From assembly GCA_020881915.1 (NCBI GenBank), contig JAJFPB010000005.1:930001-994000 (forward strand): a stretch of DNA of 64,000 nucleotides, read 5' to 3'. Shown piece by piece: positions 46,627-59,621 of the stretch. The notes under the pieces are model-generated. The model did no database searches. It was not told where the DNA came from and saw only the letters and a program-made list of their open reading frames with translations. This DNA comes from Paramyrothecium sp. XJ0827. Lineage: Eukaryota; Ascomycota; Sordariomycetes; Hypocreales; Stachybotryaceae. Position 1 is the stretch's first letter. Every line of letters starts with the position of its first letter. The position numbers and the translations under genes are program-made.

Positions 46627-47651
46627 ATGCCTCTTCCAACTCATTTTACCCTTAATACAGGCGCGAAGATTCCTGCCGTCGGCTTCGGAACATGGCAAGC
46701 GCCTCCTGGTCAGGTTGAAAAAGCTGTCGAGGTTGCGCTCAAGAGCGGCTACAGGCACATCGACTGCGCTGCCATATACCGCAACGAAGCCGAAGTGGGT
46801 CAGGGGATTCGCAATAGTGGTGTGAACAGGGCGGAAATCTTCATTACAGGCAAACTGTGGAACACAAAACATGCACCTGAGGATGTTGAGGCGGCCGTCG
46901 ATAAGACGCTGAAGGATCTCGGTACCGATTATCTCGATCTGTACCTCATGCACTGGCCTGTGTGAGTTACTTGTTCTGTTGGACCCAGTAATTTGCTAAT
47001 ATTGTTGGAAGGGCTTTCAAATCTGGAGACTCTTTGTTTCCGATCGATTCGGATGGCCGGTTCCAGCTTGGCGACATCGACCCTGCCGAAACCTACGCCG
47101 CCATGGAGAAAGTACTCGAGACTGGCAAAGTTCGTGCCATCGGTGTCTCCAACTTCACACGACAGCGGATCGATGATCTCCTGTCAAAAACAAAGGTTGT
47201 GCCGGCAGTCAACCAGATCGAGGCCCATCCGTACCTGCAGCAACCCGAACTCCTTGACTACCTCAAGTCCAAGAATATCCAACTTGTTGCCTACTCACCG
47301 CTTGGAAACAATCAAAACGGCGAACCAAGAACAGTGGATGATCCACTAGTCGCCGAACTTGGAAAGAAGTATGACCTGGATATCGGGCAGGTCTTGTATT
47401 CCTGGGGCGTCCAGCGAGGCACCGTAGTGCTGCCAAAGAGCGTGACACCGAGCCGCATTGAATCAAACCTCAAGGTACAAGAACTCCCAGAGGATGCTTT
47501 TCAGCAACTGAACGCCTTGGAAAGGAAGAAGAGATACAATTGGCAGGTAAGGTGGGGCTTCGACATATTCCAAGAGTTGGGCGAAGACGAAGCGAAGAGA
47601 CTAGCAAAAGAGAAAGGCCCCGAGAACCTGCAGATGTTTAGTGCAAAGTAG
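46627..47651 (+). CDS. Aldo-keto reductase
   Basis: Two exons, 46627-46961 and 47012-47651, giving 324 residues. The ATG giving [16 protein letters not shown] is at the normal distance from the first strand. The catalytic tetrad is complete: Asp46 and Tyr51 in [11 protein letters not shown], Lys76 in GKLWN and His109 in MHWPV. The coenzyme-binding region is [14 protein letters not shown], typical for NADPH. The enzyme should reduce aldehydes or ketones to alcohols in the cytosol. Its neighbour produces an aldehyde or alcohol from a carboxylic acid and shares its promoter motif, so it may complete that reduction; this pairing is inference. Confidence 0.93.
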
Positions 47652-47807: not shown

Positions 47808-50025
47808 TCAGAGACAGACCGATGAGTCAAGGTCCAACCAATCAGTAGTTTCCCATTCGTCTAGCAAATTTGGATGGTACACAACGGATGGATCGGCCTC
47901 GGGATAACCCTGAACCAGAGGCACTATGATGTGTCCAGCCGGAATCGCGTCTGAGGTCGCTGTAGCGGCGCTACCAAGGTCAACCGGCTGGAGCGCCCGA
48001 GCCGGCTCGATCCTTTCGGCAGCTGGTGGTGGCCGCTGGATTTGGGTCAATGCTGCCTCGCGGAATTCCTCTAGGATGACGGCGTAACGTCGGCTGGGTG
48101 AGTTTGACGCTGTAGCCTGTGCCAAATATCTGTGACATCTCTCGGCCAAGGAAAGCAAAGACGATCTGTTCTCTTTGCCAATTGTCTGTCCTTGACGTCG
48201 TTGCTGGATTTCCCAAACATAGACAACGACCAGAGCAATAAAGACGATGTAATGCGTCCACCAAAACGCGTGGAACATGGGGCCCTCTTTGGCGAAGGTA
48301 TCGACAGTTTCCAGCGTCACCTTTGCGGCAGCCATGCAGTCATTGACGCGATCTTCGTACAATGACGTTGAGCTTCCAAGGAGAAAGAGACGGTTGGCAT
48401 GCATGATAGCGTGTGACTGGGCAAGTTTGAGGACTGTGGCCTGTCGTCGATAACGGGTGATGAGCATGGACGGAGGAATGGAGCCAAGATGAAGCGGTAG
48501 GCTGTCCCGCCACTCGTTGATCATCTGCATGAGTTTATGAACCGCGGCAACACGTCCTTGCTCAGAAATGTCCCTTGTCGAATACACCTCACGGGATATG
48601 CGACCCATGATTCGTGCGATTCTGGAGAAAAATTAGTGACTGGAAATTTTCGTGGGTCATGCAAATTTACTTTACGTGGAAGATGAGGGCGTCGATTTGG
48701 CAGTCATCGGGAACGTCGGGGACTTCGCATGGGCCGTCCGCCGTCATACTGTCGTCGTTGACGCGATCAGGTAGCTCCTGGTCGATATCATCGTCGTGGA
48801 AATAACGAGGTCGACCGAAAACAACGCCAAGATGGTTATCCAGGACATATGCTGTCCAAAAAGTGCGTAGCCCGCATTGCATGTGTATGTAGTCAACTGC
48901 ACGATTAGTCCTTCGCCTCCTGGCGTTGACCCGTCGATGCAGCCCGAGAGCAGATACAAATTGCAATGCTGTGCCAAACACAAACCAGCTACGGTTGAAT
49001 CGGGATGTTGTGAGTAGATAGAGAACCTGGACCAGCCTTGCCTGTGCAGACTCCAAACGAGGATAGCCAGTTTCCGAGTCGGTGAGCTTCGTGGCCCGGC
49101 AGAAGAACTCGTCGCTCAATCTCAATGCTTTGGCTTCATCTTCAACAGAAGTTAGTTTGTTGGCCGATTTCTCGCGGTAGGCAACGGCCACTGCAAGCAC
49201 ACCGAGCACGATGGCTGCCCTAGCGCGACCGATGCCGTGCCATATAGGCTGCTCGGTCGCTACGTTCTGCTCAACGGCACCCAACCACCCCTCGACAGTT
49301 GGACGATGGAGGAAACGGTAGGTTGCGACGCAAAAATCGAAGTAGTGGCCGACGAGGTACCTGGCCTCTGTAGGTCCTGGGAGACGCAACGGCGTTTGCT
49401 CATCGATGTCGGGCAGCGGATTGTCGCCAGCCATCGTGACTGGCTGGTTCTCCGCCGAGATTTTGGGCTCATCAGTCACGGCGTTTGCATTCTGTGTCGA
49501 AAGCCTTTTCCACGCGCGGTGGAGAAAGCTAAGGCCAGAAGTTGAATCGAAGACTTGACCTTGGATCTCTGCAATACCTAGCTCTGGAGATTCCCGCGAC
49601 GGACCAGTGCTCTCCTGATTCTGGAGGGGCTCCATATCGGCGTTGAAGACATCATTCTCCGGGACACGGACTGGCTGAGGGCGCGGGAGGAAGGGGGTGG
49701 TGCTTCCATTCGACTCCATGCGAGAAGGGGGCGTTGGAGGTCGTCCGCGCGTGTACTTGGCATCGTACAGGCAAGACCTTCCCCGGACTACACATTTGTC
49801 GCATGGCTGGGTCCCACTGCACTTGGCTTTTCGCGATTTGCAAAAATCGCACGCCCGACTGACCTTCCTACCCTTGTGCATGCCATTGTCGACCGTCGTG
49901 GGTGACAGCTCGGATGAGGAGCTGGCATCACGACCGTTTGGCCTCGAGATGGCAGATGCCGGCGCACTAATCCGGCGTCGTTTATGCGACGCTGGGCTCG
50001 GGGGTGATGCAATGCGATAATCCAT
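47808..50025 (-). CDS. Zn2Cys6 transcription factor (regulator 2 of the A-T-R-kinase locus)
   Basis: Two exons on the minus strand, 48671-50025 and 47808-48621, giving 722 residues. The start giving MDYRIASPPSPASHKRRRIS is preferred over an upstream extension of the frame. The binuclear cluster is Cys59, 62, 69, 75, 78 and 85 (CDFCKSRKAKC, CDKC). It is preceded by basic residues and followed by a fungal_trans (middle homology) domain with LRLPGPTEARYLVGHYF and RTFWTAYVLDNHLGVVFGRPR. The middle homology domain is the standard regulatory part of Gal4-type factors. The gene is divergent from the A-T-R-kinase gene and convergent with the aldo-keto reductase, placing it between two genes that share an operator-like motif. 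Confidence 0.9.
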
Positions 50026-52176
50026 TAGACTGCGACGGACAAAGACGATCGGAATGCGTTGGTTGCTGACGAGGCGGAAAAGGAAGAAGGAATACGGAAA
50101 AGGTTGGGAGAGATTCCCTCGAACGGCGGGGAAAGTGGAGGGGAGGGGGCTGGAGCGGACCCTGCCGATTCCCCATGGGGAAGCACATGGCGGTGCCTCG
50201 TCGCAGAGAGCGAGAGTTGTAGACAAGTTGCAAGAAAGACCAAGGGTTTACTAACAATGGGGTAAATTATTTAGTTTAAGAGATCAAATTGGAACACATT
50301 CCTATTCATCCTGCATTTTGGCAAGGAAGAAAGGCGAATATGTTCGAGTTGGTCCTCATTCCGTACCTACCAAACGAGTGATGGTGTCAACACGCGAGCC
50401 AATTGCAACACGAATAGGAAATTGAGCATACGAACGAATTCGCAAGGGGAAATGAGTAAGTCGGGAGTGGCTTGGTACGCCAATGCCGATTGTAGAACAG
50501 AAGACTGCGATTTCTGCAAATTCCCATTACTTTCGCCAGCCGTTCAAACCCCCGAAGCGTGTCAAAAGGAACCAAATGCATTGGTTCCATTCTTCAGCCA
50601 GTGCCAAGTCTATGATTGTAGCTGATGAATCGTCCACCGGTGCAAAAGAGACAGCATTATCATCGCACAAGGCGTCGTTAATTACCTTAAGCAGTGGTAT
50701 TTGCCCCAGCTTCATGTACCACTTCTCAGTAAGCCACAATACCTGGCTCGTATTTTGCCTTCGACCCTGGCCTTCCATGCATTACCCCACTATTGGAACC
50801 GAGCCCTCAAGCAATGCAGGCCACGATGCCGGGAGCTCCGAACTCAGCAAAGCCCAAGTATGTGAACTCTTTGGTCTATGATCGAACCATACCACCGGTA
50901 TTGGGGATACGTAATCAGGCTATGCCAACAGCAGGTCTGCGGAAGACGGCAGTGCCGATGCTTGTAAGGTTAGGGTTGGAGATCGAGTTTTGGCGGTTTG
51001 TACGATTGGCACCCATTACGCGTCCACCTTCGCTCTTGAGTCGGAAGGGACTGAACATGCCGACTTTAATCACACGAATCACACAGTTTCGCATCCGTGA
51101 TATGTAGCTTAGATAGAACAGGCATCACCTTCACCGAGGAGGAGGCGGAGGTTGTGGACTGTGCATAGCCCGTGTCTTTTGCAGTAGTCAATCTCGTGCA
51201 TCGTGTCGCAGTCAGCAGCATCGAGCGCCACATCAGAGGACAGAGAAATCATGAGGCGCTCACTAGAAGGGGGCTGGTCGACACTATGCTCGCAGATTCG
51301 ATGATTGCAAAGCCTGTCATGAGCCTCTCCAATGATAGTCAGATAGAGGCATGTCTTTGTATCTTGCAAACTGGTGAGTAAAAACTCAGAGAATAAACTT
51401 CTACTCCTATAAAAAAAACAAGGATTGAAATCCGAAGAGAAAACAATCTGTAAAATGCTCCGAAGAATTCAATAATTCAGAATACTCACTCATATTGTCA
51501 TATTAACATTTCTCAGTGGTCATGCGGGGTCGCTCATGATTTCCCTCACCAAGGCCTGGTCGAACCGGGAAGCTCACAGCACCACGATTGAAGCCATCTC
51601 CACTGTCCTTATCCTTCGCTGAGCGCCTTCTCACTGGGTTGATCCTGAGAGAAGCTTGGCTAAAACAGTAGAATCTGGGCCAAGGCTCGGCATTTGGTGC
51701 CCGGATTAAAATCCGTGTCGAATTACCGATGAGTCGGTAGTTTGTCCGGCAATGCGACCGACCAATGATGAGCATAATCCGCCGCAATGCGTCCAGGCGA
51801 GACTGCTGACCATTTCCAACGCAGTTGTGGTAGTATATTCTTTCCCTGCAGATCTGAGTATCGACTGTTGCTGTTATTCCCGGAGACTTCCATTGATAGG
51901 CATCGAGATTTCGAACTACTGGATATGAATTGGTGGATCGCCTTGTGATGTGCATCCAGTATCAAAACATCTAGCATCTTCGAATTGCCTGCCCCCGCAA
52001 TTCACAACGGATGCTTTTCCGTTATACCTGATTCTAGCAAGAACAAGGGAAGATCGCATCTGAGCCACTACCCATCGGAGCACACCTCCAGCATTGCCGA
52101 GCGAGGCTCAAAAGCGGCCCGGCTCCCTTTCCGAAATCGACGACAATCCACAGAAGGCATTTGGAACACTTTCAAG
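50026..52176. other. Divergent intergenic region of about 2.15 kb
   Basis: Between regulator 2 and the A-T-R-kinase gene. No intact gene is supported. A minus-strand stretch around 50850-51090 (ANRTNRQNSISNPNLTSIG, then LRIPNTGGMVR with in-frame TGA codons) looks protein-like and may be a decayed gene that I cannot name. The composite operator at 51702-51739 lies in the right part. Confidence 0.5.
51702..51739 (+). promoter_or_regulatory. Composite inverted-repeat operator, copy 2 (A-T-R-kinase promoter)
   Basis: CGGATTAAAATCCG at 51702-51715, identical over 14 nt to the copy at 46382-46395. It is followed after 8 nt by TACCGA-TGAG-TCGGTA at 51724-51739, a perfect 6-nt-arm palindrome. The pair lies 438-475 nt upstream of the ATG at 52177. 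It is a likely binding module for one or both Zn2Cys6 factors of this locus. Confidence 0.65.
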
Positions 52177-55100
52177 ATGCCGGCGTCTGTCTGCGTACCT
52201 AGCCACGCCGAGACCCTCACGGGTGAGGCCAGTGGAATTGATCAGATTGTTGAGGCCATCTCTACCTCACCGCAAGTCCAGGATGACGACTCGTCTCTGC
52301 GTACAGTGGACGCTTTGGTCAGACGGCGAGCATTACTGCATTCCAACGATCATGCGGTATCCTATCCCTATTCCGGTACAGCCTTCCGCGACTATACTCT
52401 GCGCCAGCTCGATGTCTTTGCCTGGCGTGTCGCAAAGTACTATGAGCAGTACCTGCCAGTTCGTCAGAGCTCAGAAGAGAAGCCGACCGTCGTCGCTCTG
52501 CTAGGACCCTCCAATCTGGAGTATCTAGTCACCCTCCTAGCACTCTCAAAGCTAGGACATACGGCTCTTCTCCTCTCAACGAGGATACCGCAACCCGCGA
52601 TTGAATCGCTCGTAAACGGCACCGGTGCCTCAGCCCTGATTGCTGATGAGAGGTTCTCCGAAACCGTCGAGGCCGTCCAGAAGAACATCCCTGCACTGTC
52701 ACTCATTCCGATCACGGAACGAGATGTGTTTGAGTTTCCGATTGAAGCTCATGGCGACACACAACTCGATTCCAATTTGGATCCCAACGTCGAGACAAAC
52801 AATATCATTTTCATCATTCACTCGAGCGGTTCGCACCTTTCCCACAACTCCTGCATGAGGACGTGCCACTAATTAGTCCAGGATCAACGGGCCTCCCTAA
52901 ACCTATTTATCAGACTCAAAAGACATGCCTGCCCAACTACGCCAGCAGCATGAACATGAAGGCTTTCATCACACTGCCTCTCTTCCACAACCATGGCATA
53001 TGCAACTTGTTCCGTGCCATCTACGCGAGAAAGTCAATTCACATATACAATGCTGATCTCCCCTTAACACAGGATTACCTGATTCAGATCATGCGGGAGA
53101 ACAAATTTGAGATCTTCTACGGTGTTCCCTATGCTCTGAAGCTGCTGTCCGAGTCAGACGATGGTATTCAGCTGCTGCGGGAGCTCAAAGTTGTCATGTA
53201 TGGCGGTTCAGCCTGCCCGGATGACTTGGGTGATACGCTTGTCAACAATGGAGTCAACCTCATAGGCCACTATGGAGCGTGAGTTGCACTTGGTAGCATG
53301 AGACATGGATGACTGACCTATATAGGACTGAGGTCGGACAACTCATGACCTCGTTTCGACCCGAAGGCGACAAAGCTTGGAACTATGTCCGGGAGCACGA
53401 AAAACTCATCCCGTTCCTGAAATGGATACCACGAGGACCGAATCTTTATGAGTGCTGCGTCTTGGACGGCTGGCAATCGAAAGTGCAGTCAAACCAACCC
53501 GACGGCTCTTACACAACAAAGGACTTGTTCGAGCCTCACCCAACCATACCAAAGGCTTGGAAATACATTGCTCGGCTAGACGACACCATTGTCCTCGTCA
53601 ATGGCGAAAAGTTCAACCCTGTCGCAGCGGAAGGCTCAATCAGATCCAACAAGAACATTACAGAAGCGGTGGTTTTTGGGGCGGGAAGACCGTTTCTCGG
53701 TATTCTAGTGGTGCCGGCCAAGTCATTGGCCGGGAAATCGGACGAGGAAATCTTGGAGGTGATCTGGCCCGTCGTCGACGCAGTGAACTCTTCTGTCGAC
53801 CACTTTGCTCGAATCTCAAAGGGAATGGTTTGCCTTTTGCCAACGGACTGCGCCTATCCCCGTACAGACAAAGGAAGCATTATTCGCCAGGCTTTCTACA
53901 AGAGCTTCGAGAACGAGATTAACGCGGCCTATGACGCCGAAGAGACCGGTTCGAGCAATGCGAGGCAATTTGAGGAGCCCGAGCTCAAAGAATTCCTCCG
54001 GGTCCTCCTGTCGCGAGTCCTTTCCACGCAGAAGGTAGTGACTGACGATACGGACTTCTTCCACCTTGGGCTGGACTCGTTACAAGCGATCCAAACGCGG
54101 AGCGAACTACTAAAAACTGTTGATACTGGGGGGAAGAAGCTTGGTCAGAACATCGTTTTCGAGCATCCATCCATCAACAAACTGGCCAAGCACCTACTCG
54201 GGCTCAGATTGGGGCAAGAGACAAAGCCTGTGGCAGTGGAGGATGATATGGCCAAGTTGATTGAGAAATACTCGGGTTTTGACATGCAGCAGGGCTCCTC
54301 AGTGGTAAGCCTAGACAGTCATGACAACGAGTCTCAGCTAACATAGCGTTAGGTCGTCACGGGCGCTACTGGCTCACTGGGAGCACATGTTGTCGCCAAG
54401 CTGTGTGCAGACCCTGGTATTTCCACGATCTACTGCCTCGTACGGGCTTCAAACAACGTACAAGCTCTCAGGCGTGTCAAAGACTCTCTAATCCAGCGTC
54501 GAATTTACCATAATCTTTCGCTTGTTGCTCGGAAGAAAATAGCTGCCTTGCCCTCTGACCTAGCAGAGTCGAACCTTGGTCTTGACGCTGCAGATTATAA
54601 AATAATCACTAGGGATCTGCGTGCCGTCATCCACTGCGCGTGGTCTGTCAACTTCAATATGCAGCTTGCCAGTTTTGAGAAAGACAACATCGCCGGCGTT
54701 GCGCACCTGATTGCCCTCTGCCGAAGCTCCTCTTTCCCAGCCTCTATGAACTTCTGCTCTTCGGTGAGCACATGCGTTCGAGCGACGACTGTGCCCATCC
54801 CAGAGTCTGCTCCTCCTTTGGAGTGGGCACAGGGCATGGGCTACGCGCAATCCAAGTCAGTGGCCGAGCATGTTTGCGCCAGAGCTGCGGAGAAAGGAGT
54901 AACGAGCCGAGTGTTGAGAGTGGGACAGATTGTCGGCGATACCAAGCACGGCGTCTGGAATGCGCAAGAAGCCGTACCCATGATGATGCAGACGGCCGTA
55001 ACCATGGGAGCGTTGCCCAAGCTCAAGGAAACGCCTTCTTGGCTGCCCGTGGACACAGTAGCGGAAGCCGTGGTTGACCTGTCGCTGTCTGAGGCCGGCA

Positions 55101-55996
55101 GCCTGTTCGCCAATGTAACTAATCCAAAAACATTTAGCTGGACAGACGACCTGTTACCGGCCTTGCGTGCTGCTGGTCTGTCCTTCGAGGAAGTTGAGCC
55201 GAAGGAGTGGATCAGGCGTCTACGCGCATCCAACCCTGATCCTGTACAGAACCCGCCTATCAAGTTGGTGGATTTCTTTGCATTCAAGTACGACAAGGAG
55301 GAGTTCACCCCATCCAAGGAATTTGTCACCAGCACAGCGTGCTCTCTCTCTCCAGCTCTTGCCAACTCACCGGTCTTAGATCAAGACCTGGTGAACAACT
55401 TCGTCCGCTACTTTACGACAAACCACTGGCAGGTACCCGTTCAGCAGCCTGCGAAAAAGACTGTCGTGATTGTTGGTGGACCATGCGGTACTGGGAAATC
55501 CATGGTCGGCTCTGCCGTCTCTTCATGGCTTCGCGTGCCGTTCATAGAAGGCGATTCGCTTCACACCCAGGCTTCAGTAGAGAAAATGCGTGCCCAAGTG
55601 GCGCTGCTCGACGAGGACCGGGCTGCATGGCTACAACGTATCTGTAGCCGCGCGAAAGAGACGCTGCAGGAACTGGGATATCAATCCGTCGTGGTAAGCT
55701 GTTCTGCTTTGCGACAAAAGTACAGGGAACAGGTTCGCGTGTTTCTCGCCGCAACTGAAATCGATGTCATTTTCGTCGACCTGCAGGCGAGCCGTGACGC
55801 CCTCGTGGAAAGACTAGAGCGGAGGACAGATCACTATATGGGGCCGGCCATGGTCGACGGCCAACTAGATACGTATGAGGCGCCTGGCTTGCATGAGACT
55901 GACGTCGTACCCGTCGATGCTGAGGCAGATGAAATTGTCGTCGTAAATGAGGTGAAATGGCTTCTGGAAAGGCTTGGTGTGGAATTTCAAAGGTGA
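52177..55996 (+). CDS. NRPS-like carboxylate reductase (A-T-R) fused to a gluconokinase-like kinase
   Basis: Four exons: 52177-52828, 52882-53278, 53326-54304 and 54353-55996, giving 1223 residues. The adenylation domain has HSSGSTGLPKP (A3, residues 215-225, completed by splicing), HYGATEVGQ (A5, 347-355), ARLDDTIVLVNGEKFNP (A8) and Lys532 in PRTDKGS (A10). The carrier domain has Ser601 in LGLDSLQ. The thioester-reductase domain has TGATGSLG from residue 679 and Tyr840/Lys844 in GYAQSKS. From about 1040 a second enzyme follows: Walker A GPCGTGKS (1052-1059), FIEGDSLH (EGD at 1075-1077), EKMRAQVALLDEDRAAWL, VSCSALRQKYRE and RTDHYMG, which matches the bacterial/fungal gluconokinase family over its whole length. 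Reductase and kinase lie in one exon with no stop. Expected activity: activation and reduction of an acid to an aldehyde or alcohol, then possible phosphorylation. Confidence 0.9.
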
Positions 55997-56299: not shown

Positions 56300-57366
56300 T
56301 CACATGCTTCTCGCTTCTTTCGGCTCCCAATCCATTGAAGTACAGAATGCATCAAGGTATTCCAATGAGAGTGAGTCCGCCACGTCAATCACACCTTTCA
56401 GATCCCTTCCATCCATAATGAGGCCATAACGACAAAACAAACCAAGCAATCTGGCTGCCCGGATAAGCTCCAAATCTACTTTTGAGGCGTTTGCTGCTTG
56501 AATCCAAAACGTTCGCCAGAACAGATCCTCGAGCTGACGGCGATTGTTGTAATACTGCCAGCCTCTTGAGTCCATAAAGCCGAGAGTATTCTCAAATCCC
56601 CATAGTGTAAGACCAAAAGGAAGGATTCTCGCCTCAGCCCAATCCACAATTCCAGTAATGTTGCCTGTATCGGGATTGATCAGGATATTCATCTCGCTGA
56701 GATCCTCGTGGCAAAGCACGAAAGGATGGGCGCATGAGAAAAGAGACGGAAGCATTCTAGAGACTCGCTGTAGGTTGGGCAAGAATCGAGCCGGTAGCGA
56801 TTGAGCAAGAAGATCCAACTTGGAACGGAACTCTGTAACAAGGGCTTCCGAGTCATCTGGTTTTAACTGCTGCGGGCAATTCCACGATTGTGCAAACTAG
56901 CTGCCTAGTTTAGTCAGGCTCAAGAATAGGGGTTGGGGACAGACTTTGCAAAATCCGTGACGGTATTGCACTGCCGCGATATAGAATTTTCCGGCTGTGG
57001 TATAGAGATATCTCGTGCCATGATATAGGCAGTTCCAGTGAGGTTGTCCATTTCGTAAATATGAAGCGGTTGCGGATGGCCAATCGTTCCGTGATACCGA
57101 CAGCCAGCTACGAATTGCGGGTGCATCTTCCTAGCTAGTTCGGTCATGCCGATGTCCAGCGGAGAGATTTCTGCTCGGAATTGGAAGACTTTGGACTTGT
57201 TCTCCCCAGCGGTTATGGTGTACCTGAATGTTCCCTGGATTGGCACAGGCTCAAGTGGCCCACCAGCATGATGAAGAGCGAAACCATCGCATTGCTGCCT
57301 AGTCGCAGTTGTATTGGATTCGAAGAACGAGTTAATCGCTCCGTCCAGGCTGTATACCGAAGTCAT
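56300..57366 (-). CDS. APH-family small-molecule kinase
   Basis: Two exons on the minus strand, 56941-57366 and 56300-56896, giving 340 residues. The donor (GTCCCC) is poor, but it is the one I found that keeps DFAKS joined in frame to FAQSWNCPQQL. The start is the ATG giving MTSVYSLDGAINSFF. The N-lobe contains YEMDNLTGTAYIMARD. The catalytic loop is HEDLSEMNILI with Asp207 and Asn212, and the metal-binding Asp227 is in GIVDWAEA. Fungal members of this aminoglycoside/choline-kinase-like family are numerous and mostly uncharacterised. It is the intact counterpart of the family of the pseudogene near 20.5 kb, but the two are not close copies. It may or may not belong to the adjacent cluster. 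Confidence 0.83.
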
Positions 57367-58170
57367 ATCGAAGAATGTTAAAGAGCGGTGAGGGGAAGAA
57401 GTTGTAGGAAATGTTGGTCGCGCCCTTCTTTCTTCCTTTCTGGGGGCCACGCCAAGCCCGTACACTATAGTAGTCACTTACCCTAAACCTACAGGAAAGG
57501 TCCGCGTGGGTATCGCAGTCGGACCTAGATAGCATCATCGAATATTCAACCCAACTATTCAAGGCCAATCTCGGCGACAGTGGGTCCCTGTGCATACGAT
57601 TGCAACACCATCCGTATGAAATTGTGACGAACTTCGTAGATCAAATGGCCCTCATGTTTTCTTTCAAGTCACTTTGTCAGCCAGCAGCCTGATCATGCCG
57701 TGTTGTTGGGGTGGGTTGTGGGATTTGGTTATGGACCAATCAATTCTCTACGAACTGTCAAGGCAAGAGAGTGAAAGAACCACAATGTGGCCCGGCGGGA
57801 TTAATTCATGTTCAAGCAAGGGTGATCACAGGTTCTTAATGGCATTGCCCGATTCTAGTTTCATGAAATGTGGTCGATAGTCCAACCAGAAGAGCCGTTG
57901 AATAATCTGGGCTGAGCTTTTATATTTGCAAACTATCGAGACAAAAGAGTGAAAGAATCATAGTGAAACCAGGTCAGGTGGATCAGTCGTCCACAAAACG
58001 AAGCAGACCACACATCCCCACATCCCAGTTTGTCATAATTTCCTCAGACACACGACAGCAGCTCCAATACCGAACTGTCACGACTGTTAACATCAATCAC
58101 ACCGAAGCCACGGAGCAAGGTCTTCCACTCACCCTCCTGAGCTTGTCTTGTCTTGTTCTATTCCTCGAGC
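57367..58170. other. Gene-free stretch with an imperfect direct repeat
   Basis: No gene is supported. Segments starting AACTGTCAAGGCAAGAGAGT (57753) and AACTATCGAGACAAAAGAGT (57931) are imperfect direct repeats of about 33 nt, 178 nt apart. Confidence 0.5.
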
Positions 58171-58413
58171 TTAGTGGCCATCGCAGTGGTACTGGGAGCT
58201 GCCAGCCGCGCAGGGGTTCTGGTCGTGGCCGGGATGGCATGAGCCGGCGGGGTTGGAGGGGCAGCAGAGCTCGCACTCGGAGAGGGACCAGATGTCACAG
58301 CCAAACTGGTCAGCAAGCTCGGGGAGCTCGGGGCAGTCCCTGCGGAAGACGCTGTTGGGGCGGGCAGCAGCCAGGGTCGCGAGAGCGACGACAAGAGCAG
58401 CGATCTTGACCAT
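58171..58413 (-). CDS. Small secreted cysteine-rich protein
   Basis: 80 residues, single exon. The signal peptide MVKIAALVVALATLAAARP is followed by a dibasic site (FRR) and a mature part of about 55 residues with eight Cys, including a CC pair in ECELCC. The spacing is C-x11-C-x7-C-x2-CC-x7-C-x8-C-x9-C. It ends in an aspartate/histidine tail. This is the profile of a small secreted effector-like or hydrophobin-sized protein, but the spacing is not that of hydrophobins or CFEM domains. I recognise no family. A TATA box precedes the gene. A longer overlapping frame in another phase is a shadow. Confidence 0.75.
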   Translation of the reverse strand: MVKIAALVVALATLAAARPNSVFRRDCPELPELADQFGCDIWSLSECELCCPSNPAGSCHPGHDQNPCAAGSSQYHCDGH

Positions 58414-59621
58414 TTTGAAAAGCTTGAATGCTTGGATGTGTATGGTTGTTTGATATTGGTGCTTTGAAATTGTTGATGGACTATTAACGAGAGAGGCATA
58501 TGTTTTCTTTTGCGGAAAACCACACGGCTTTATACTCGCGCAGTGTCCGACCTGATCCCACCGGCAGTTATTCACAAGCCGACATGCAAATGAATGCTGG
58601 AGAATCCCACGAGGCATGCAAACTCAACGCCACCATCCCGGAGTGGAAGCGGATGAACGACGAGGCTCGGACATCAGGGTTGCAGGTAAAATATCCCAGT
58701 CACTCAACGTCGACATTGCTTCGGCTCGTCGGGGTAACTTGAGTAAGAAAGCCGCGCGCCATTGCGGTCCTCATCAGACGCGCGCCTGGCATCGTGACGT
58801 GCGTCTCACATGCACGAGGCAGCTAACAACTACGAGGAGAATTGCTTGTGCTGGGCCATGTGGTCGACACCGAGCCGATTGACACCCTGACGACTCCTTG
58901 CTTGCCATGGTACAGATAGTTGATTGCATTGTGGGTGAGTACCTTACTTGACTTGTCTTACCTAAGGCAACGTCGCAAATGGCGCACGTCAAGTGTTAAT
59001 AGAACCCTGATGGCCTTTTCCCATAACTTCCCCTGTCATCCATCACAATCAATGGCTTGGCATTCAATATCACTCCAATGAAAAGGACCTTTTGGCCCGA
59101 CCATCAGGCCCGATGCATCCTCCTGCAGGTCAGCGGGACGTCGGGCGCGGTGCCCCTCAAGTGAGTAGGATAGCTGAGCCTATGCCGCACACACTGCGTG
59201 CTCACCACGAGGTCATGCATGTGAATCAAAGCTGACTGACATGAAAGATCCCTGGGCCAGGCCAAAGAGGTACTCACCGACAAGGATGAATCGCCGCCAC
59301 CCAGCTTCTTCCAGGCCGGTGATGAGGCCGCTCGCGGTCAATGCATCCGAGCCAGGTGTGTGTGTGTGTACGGCCTCTGCGCTTGCACCTTGCACTCAGT
59401 AGTCTCATGGACCATCGCGCCACATGAAAGGGAGGCAGGGAGATAGCCTTGTCGAGCGGCTGATAGATCAAGGAAGCCGGCCAAGCTGGACGCACAGGTA
59501 TGTCAACGGACAGGGCTGGTGAGCGGATGCTTATATGAGGGCAGACAATCCTCTTCTCTCGGTGAAAGTTCCCTCTTCACGGCTCACCAGCACACACGGT
59601 CGTTCAAGCTCGTCAAACATC
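58414..59621. other. Divergent promoter region of about 1.2 kb
   Basis: No gene is supported between the small secreted protein and the repeat protein. A short TG tract lies near 59357. Confidence 0.55.
58528..58534 (-). promoter_or_regulatory. TATA box of the small secreted protein gene
   Basis: TATAAAG on the minus strand, about 115-120 nt before the ATG at 58413. Confidence 0.5.

Follow-up and report, generated by a model that had tools for sequence, protein, structure and literature searches.

Our analysis of a 64,000-nucleotide stretch of the genome of the fungus Paramyrothecium sp. XJ0827 (contig JAJFPB010000005.1, forward-strand positions 930,001 to 994,000; the whole stretch is called "the window" below, and coordinates refer to it) shows that one of its genes joins, in a single polypeptide, a carboxylic acid-reducing enzyme and a kinase of the sugar-acid type. 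Adenylation (A), carrier (T) and thioester reductase (R) domains are followed by a gluconokinase-type P-loop kinase, and the parts lie as follows:

52177..55996, forward strand: A-T-R-kinase gene, whole coding region (exons 52177-52828, 52882-53278, 53326-54304 and 54353-55996; 1223 amino acids)
52345..53944, forward strand: adenylation domain, residues 57-556, broken by introns 1 and 2, with His-253 of PxxH and Glu-444 of GEK (Pfam AMP-binding 120.6 bits, AMP-binding_C_3 147.8 bits)
53993..54196, forward strand: carrier (T) domain with the phosphopantetheine Ser-601 (Pfam PP-binding 38.4 bits)
54356..55072, forward strand: thioester reductase (R) core, NAD_binding_4, with Tyr-840xxxLys-844 (Pfam 158.2 bits)
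55385..55456, forward strand: junction, comprising the conserved R-domain end (DLVNNFVRYF...W) and a short variable linker (placed by the C-termini of 12 kinase-poor relatives and by lower model confidence)
55427..55993, forward strand: gluconokinase-type P-loop kinase domain, residues 1035-1223
55574..55576, forward strand: codon of Ser-1084, which replaces the Asn of most stand-alone gluconokinases (alignment of fused and stand-alone sequences)

We put the chances at about even that this protein is a bifunctional enzyme whose A-T-R part reduces an acid and whose kinase phosphorylates a hydroxyl on a small polar compound from that pathway, the released product being the likeliest acceptor rather than gluconate.

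One polypeptide with four domains

The coding region begins with an ATG at 52177, ends with the stop codon 55994-55996 and, once spliced, comprises 1223 codons without an internal stop; its introns (52829-52881, 53279-53325 and 54305-54352; 53, 47 and 48 bases) are all GT-AG, and no ambiguous base (N) occurs within the gene sequence. Pfam finds the domains in the order AMP-binding (57-369), AMP-binding_C_3 (435-556), PP-binding (573-640), NAD_binding_4 (678-916) and AAA_33 (1047-1186). The four-domain protein proposed in an initial annotation, made from the sequence alone, is thus real, and as it stated, reductase and kinase share a frame and one uninterrupted exon (54353-55996). The kinase motifs it quoted are also in place (GPCGTGKS at 1052-1059, EGDSLH at 1075-1080, DEDRAAWL at 1096-1103 and SCSALRQKYRE at 1125-1135). 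The region 55400-55450, for which the initial annotation had considered sequence errors, aligns without a gap with the Paramyrothecium relative, and the linker length differs in remoter relatives. A structure model of the R domain and kinase is confident as a single unit, with confidence dropping at the junction (blocks with predicted local distance difference test values of 74 and 70); packing of the two domains was judged from the predicted template modelling (pTM) score, which alone does not prove a fixed contact.

The A-T-R part resembles a working carboxylate reductase

The A-T-R order is that of the fungal carboxylate reductases, among them the Neurospora crassa enzyme (NcCAR). Those proteins have nothing beyond the R domain, so that the window protein carries the kinase as an extra part. 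The R domain scores 222.2 bits against NCBIfam TIGR01746, above the cut-off of 213.35. H237, E433, S595, Y844 and K848 are reported as essential in NcCAR (PMC5826065), and their counterparts in the window protein are His253, Glu444, Ser601, Tyr840 and Lys844, each in the same motif context (PxxH, GEK, the carrier Ser and YxxxK). In an alignment of 129 reductase sequences (128 database proteins of at least 800 amino acids and the window protein; aligned sequences are called rows here, and database proteins carry P numbers), His253 is kept in all 123 rows with a letter at that position and the other four residues in 129 of 129. That the A-T-R part is a working carboxylate reductase is therefore well supported by its sequence.

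The nature of its acid is less easily read. The best solved relatives of the A domain by sequence are feruloyl-CoA, fatty-acyl-CoA and 4-chlorobenzoate-CoA ligases, all of them weak matches, and reading of the A-domain specificity code gave no usable prediction. An amino acid is disfavoured: PMC4804170 describes Asp-235 of PheA as conserved in nonribosomal peptide synthetases (NRPSs), and no Asp occurs in segment 249-257 (LPLFHNHGI) of the 123 rows that have letters at those positions. The hint is weak, since the correspondence to Asp-235 was judged by eye.

A GntK-type kinase with a changed residue in the acceptor-side motif

The initial annotation had also called the C-terminal domain a gluconokinase-like kinase, and the profile comparison bears this out. 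Residues 1035-1223 reach 140.6 bits with TIGR01313, the family model for GntK/IdnK-type gluconokinases, which has a cut-off of 113.75, whereas the single-enzyme models are far under their cut-offs (NF008583, 98.6 of 265; NF007336, 92.9 of 304). The domain matches the solved gluconokinases 3t61, 1knq and 4eun by sequence and has the gluconate kinase fold. It shares with E. coli GntK/IdnK and the Sinorhizobium gluconokinase (1knq, 3t61) the fold, P-loop, EGD..H, DxDR..W, CSAL..YR and R..H elements, but those enzymes stand alone, without a reductase, and have an Asn that the fused family lacks. We therefore class the domain, on its sequence, as GntK-type and not as a gluconokinase.

This Asn, part of the xxNxxKM motif of gluconokinases, is Ser-1084 in the window kinase. 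It is present in 96 of 111 stand-alone rows but in none of the 117 fused rows, which have Ala (87), Ser (17), Asp (5), Pro (2), His (2), Cys (1) or a gap (3); the 72 rows with all eight kinase core residues and good coverage elsewhere have Ala (56), Ser (14) or His (2). Of the changes first noticed on the acceptor side, then, the loss of Asn holds throughout the 114 fused rows with a letter, but that of G-x-P (Q-V-A in the window kinase) is not a family trait, since the Gly is present in 65 and the Pro in 44 of the 117. Cys1054 of the P-loop and the Tyr or His at 1184 also differ from most stand-alone rows and from the genome's own ordinary gluconokinase, which is encoded separately on contig 7. 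The window protein keeps all eight core residues, as do 75 other rows of the 117. Asp1098 is replaced in two neighbouring groups of five and seven rows, named as Pleosporales fungi (a placement looked up for Bipolaris only). Because the Asn is lacking family-wide, these other positions differ, Asp1098 is replaced in two groups and the genome has a separate gluconokinase, gluconate seems an unlikely natural acceptor of the fused kinase. The residues that replace Asp1098 are several (P0193, P0197, P0207, P0213, P0215, P0219, P0221, P0227 and P0232-P0235), and the other core residues are kept in these rows except in P0221.

Distribution and earlier descriptions

The initial annotation suggested a search for the same domain order in other fungal genomes, and many proteins share it. 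A search with the kinase segment, in which the length of candidates was taken from the whole protein, gave 36 proteins at E ≤ 0.001, all of which list reductase and carrier domains; AAA_33 is listed in all but P0034, and AMP-binding is unlisted in P0009, P0012, P0027 and P0031. The two most divergent A-T-R-kinase proteins among the 36, P0035 and P0036, have kinases only 39% and 36% identical to that of the window protein, with all eight core residues kept. A search with residues 1-1020 found 1131 proteins, and our results rest on the best 120 of these: at least 60% of the kinase is aligned in 108, part of it in three and none or almost none in nine, and AAA_33 is listed in 97. The closest of these best 120 is a Paramyrothecium foliicola protein, 87% identical over 100% of residues 1-1020. 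Named relatives among the matches listed span Sordariomycetes and Dothideomycetes (lineages were looked up for single examples), and the fusion is common in these two classes. The possibility that it is unique to this genome is ruled out by both searches. Database names for the family are haphazard and include "gluconokinase", "male sterility protein", "FUB8" and "ascB like".

The architecture is already in print, as AFLA_054270 of Aspergillus flavus (Eurotiomycetes) is entered as "A-T-R-gntK" in a 2014 table of backbone genes for secondary metabolites (section 2.1 of PMC4073137). By that description the domain order is the same as in the window protein and the length similar (1251 and 1223 amino acids). 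Expression is given there as 0.0-0.3 reads per kilobase per million in four strains or species, and the passages around the table row give it neither a function nor a discussion. No Aspergillus protein names occur among the 36 kinase-search matches or the best 120 of the 1131 reductase matches. One member of the family has been counted as a plain A-T-R enzyme: PFICI_12508 of Pestalotiopsis fici, one of 84 fungal carboxylate reductases in PMC9605436, is our P0196 (1234 amino acids), which carries a kinase like that of the window protein, with Asp1098 changed. The word "kinase" does not occur in the main text of that paper, and its passages on P. fici report an assay of PnlA only.

The claim that no characterized A-T-R-kinase fusion is known thus needs qualifying: the architecture is common and was printed in 2014, but we found no functional study of it and no product of the family in the open-access PubMed Central (PMC) literature, to which our search was confined, so that subscription papers may hold a description. 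There the terms "gluconokinase" and "NRPS-like" occur together in one paper only, that with the A. flavus table. Two studied proteins were considered as relatives and set aside: TmpB of Aspergillus nidulans has 989 amino acids and ends in a TmpA-like oxidoreductase domain (PMC4804170), and AOL_s00188g306 is an A-T-R protein of 1053 amino acids for which the excerpts of PMC10373296 mention no kinase domain. Glycine betaine reductase, described as A-T-R-R (PMC8403587, citing Hai et al. 2019), is a precedent in which an A-T-R enzyme carries a further catalytic domain at its C-terminus. Its added domain is a second reductase and not a kinase, and the window protein has only one NAD_binding_4 stretch, with the kinase as its C-terminus. 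The extra domain of glycine betaine reductase reportedly acts on the released aldehyde.

Origin of the kinase and its repeated decay

We built a kinase tree from 55 rows (27 of the 117 fused and 28 of the 111 stand-alone, with only one ordinary fungal gluconokinase). The fused kinases and the genome's own gluconokinase share a branch (support 100/99) that excludes the remaining stand-alone enzymes; the fused rows other than P0035 and P0036 hold together at 99/98, and support for separating the own gluconokinase from the fused rows is low (82/29). The kinase was thus probably recruited once from a fungal gluconokinase lineage, although the metagenomic pair P0035/P0036 may, from its place in this tree, have a separate origin. 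A bacterial origin was considered, as most named stand-alone matches are bacterial, but was set aside, because in this 55-row tree the fused kinases branch with the fungus's own enzyme. Two entries within the fused clade are pieces: P0037 is part of a fused gene (it carries the end of the R domain), and P0038, from a contig of 964 bases, is a fragment that begins within the kinase.

A reductase tree was made with FastTree from 123 of the 129 rows (six were omitted for poor coverage; support values are local only). Its first branches (P0035/P0036, P0236 and P0033) bear intact kinases, and for this reason the fusion is most simply read as ancestral to the sampled rows, with the kinase lost later. 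The root is provisional: the outgroup P0035/P0036 came from a search that selects for kinases and so favours such a picture, deeper kinase-less relatives are unsampled, and long branches may meet. On this tree an "absent" kinase needs eight changes, six of them forced by well-supported branches, and "absent or degraded" needs 16; these counts are less certain than they appear, because gene-model errors may account for some such rows (P0155 and P0175, on near-zero branches, are intact, but P0156 is truncated) and because P0228 is scored as kinase-bearing by coverage. Most of the kinase is missing from 12 rows: nine end shortly past the conserved Trp of the R tail, two continue slightly into kinase sequence, and the last stops earlier, with a tail unlike the others. 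Seven others (P0161, P0166, P0178, P0181, P0184, P0202 and P0205) have C-terminal tails of 159-182 residues in which the last strands and helix are kept and the P-loop Lys or the Arg1167/His1170 segment, or both, are lost. Among the 72 intact members, A-domain and kinase identities correlate at 0.89.

Three proteins of a Trichoderma clade have kept the kinase length and are candidate pseudokinases by their residues: P0029 and P0030 are changed at His1080, Arg1099 and His1170, and P0174 at the last two, with Arg1167 missing. Two proteins are listed for Fusarium nematophilum. The kinase is nearly intact in P0150 (Asp1098 to Glu) and decayed in P0184, which suggests duplication followed by kinase loss in one copy.

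A proposed reaction sequence and its alternatives

Enzymes of the A-T-R class form an acyl-AMP, transfer it to a carrier thioester and release it as an aldehyde with NADPH (PMC9605436). By analogy, the A domain of the window protein would activate a carboxylic acid with ATP to the acyl-AMP, the carrier domain would hold it as a thioester, and the R domain would release it with NADPH as an aldehyde or perhaps an alcohol. The kinase, for which packing with the R domain is predicted, would then use ATP to phosphorylate a hydroxyl on a small polar compound from this pathway, both sites being active and serving one route. Phosphorylation after release is favoured over phosphorylation before it, because lineages that have lost the kinase keep the reductase residues. 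The proposal of the initial annotation, acid reduction followed by phosphorylation of the product, would fit this picture. A more specific version, to which we give a somewhat lower probability, short of even, is that reductive release and phosphate transfer occur in sequence, the reactive aldehyde or alcohol passing straight to a re-aimed sugar-acid kinase to give a phosphorylated carbonyl or alcohol. If so, the kinase-less lineages would make the unphosphorylated product, and the family would offer a natural series of paired enzymes.

Several observations and limits of the evidence weigh against a bifunctional enzyme of this kind. Many relatives have a degraded kinase or none and seemingly keep the reductase, so the kinase step appears to be dispensable in several lineages. 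The kinase is also the least conserved part in the 72 intact members (mean identities A 0.68, R 0.66 and kinase 0.52). Decayed kinases have diverged more than intact ones at similar reductase identity (0.31 and 0.49 at 60-65%, with smaller gaps of 0.66 and 0.77 at 85-90%, and 0.78 and 0.83 at 90-95%, and three decayed pairs in each of the last two), but the pairs of this comparison are non-independent, it is partly circular in that rows were sorted by kinase residues, and it includes P0228, whose tail looks unrelated (14% identity) though it counts as kinase-bearing by coverage. A role of the missing Asn in gluconate binding is putative, the catalytic roles of both parts are read from residues and their substrates are putative too, and the packing of R domain and kinase is a pTM-based prediction. 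Finally, among the 30 window open reading frames (ORFs) that were scanned (from 44 selected ORFs of at least 150 codons, four of which overlap the gene's exons on the same strand), no polyketide synthase, further NRPS, cytochrome P450 or methyltransferase domain was found, and this scanned set thus holds no ordinary biosynthetic cluster.

Two alternatives are the main rivals of the bifunctional enzyme with phosphorylation after release, and we regard them as equally and rather improbable. In the first the kinase acts before the reductase, phosphorylating a hydroxy-acid that the A-T-R part then activates and reduces. The substrate of gluconokinases is an acid, which makes the ancestral acceptor a carboxylic acid too, and alignments of fused and stand-alone kinases do not fix the reaction order; but the kinase has been lost while the reductase residues stayed invariant, which would be harder if the reductase needed a phosphorylated substrate, and the best solved relatives of the A domain are acyl- and aryl-CoA ligases, weak as those matches are. 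In the second the kinase is no longer metabolic and has come to serve the reductase as a pseudokinase-like module with a structural or regulatory role. The seven decayed members that keep long tails despite lost core segments would fit this, as would the R-kinase model that is confident as one unit. Against it, most of the fused rows (the window protein and 75 more) keep the whole core, and the greater divergence of the decayed copies suggests erosion rather than a new role.

Still less probable is a true gluconokinase that is tethered to an unrelated reductase and still makes 6-phosphogluconate. The TIGR01313 score, the conserved kinase core and the common branch with the genome's own gluconokinase are what this would predict, but the Asn is missing from every fused row with a letter, that separate enzyme already exists in the genome, and Asp-1098 is replaced in the two presumed Pleosporales groups. 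An artefact, that is, a mis-joined gene model, sequence error or mis-assembly linking two genes, is close to refuted: automatic gene models carry this risk and differ even inside one species (P0155 and P0175 as against P0156), but the exon is single and open, and the same domain order is found in most of the best 120 of 1131 relatives and in the Aspergillus table.

Neighbouring genes

Three neighbours in the window have Pfam matches, and the gene is flanked by the first and the third:

48670..50247, reverse strand: Zn2Cys6 transcription factor, divergent from the A-T-R-kinase gene (Fungal_trans 78.7 bits, Zn_clus 28.5 bits)
46992..47648, forward strand: part of an aldo/keto reductase gene (Aldo_ket_red 93.5 bits)
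56303..56896, reverse strand: fragment of an APH-type phosphotransferase, just downstream (34.2 bits)

From its position the first is possibly a regulator of the A-T-R-kinase gene, and the second may be linked to the pathway. The APH-type region, a second kinase-like neighbour, spans 56303-57477 on the reverse strand, its part 56923-57477 having no Pfam match. A small cysteine-rich ORF at 58171-58617 (reverse strand) looks secreted by eye. Elsewhere in the genome (51.8 Mb, 15 contigs), reductase-domain matches at C12:1058345-1059031 and C1:573262-573945 (both reverse strand) lie in open frames of 24,978 and 6,660 residues, pointing to giant NRPS-like genes.

Significance

Already known were the A-T-R enzymes as a class, the kinase class and, from PMC4073137, the architecture itself. 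As far as the open-access PMC literature shows, what is new is the breadth of the family, the kinship of its kinase with fungal gluconokinase, the family-wide lack of the Asn, and the fact that the kinase has decayed repeatedly while the reductase stayed invariant. Although widespread in filamentous ascomycetes, the family is inconsistently annotated. If both sites work in one pathway, a free acid would be converted to a phosphorylated product within one chain, which would be useful for understanding NRPS-like enzymes that lie outside clusters and for biocatalysis, and the many lineages with decayed kinases provide a ready comparison for the role of the kinase.

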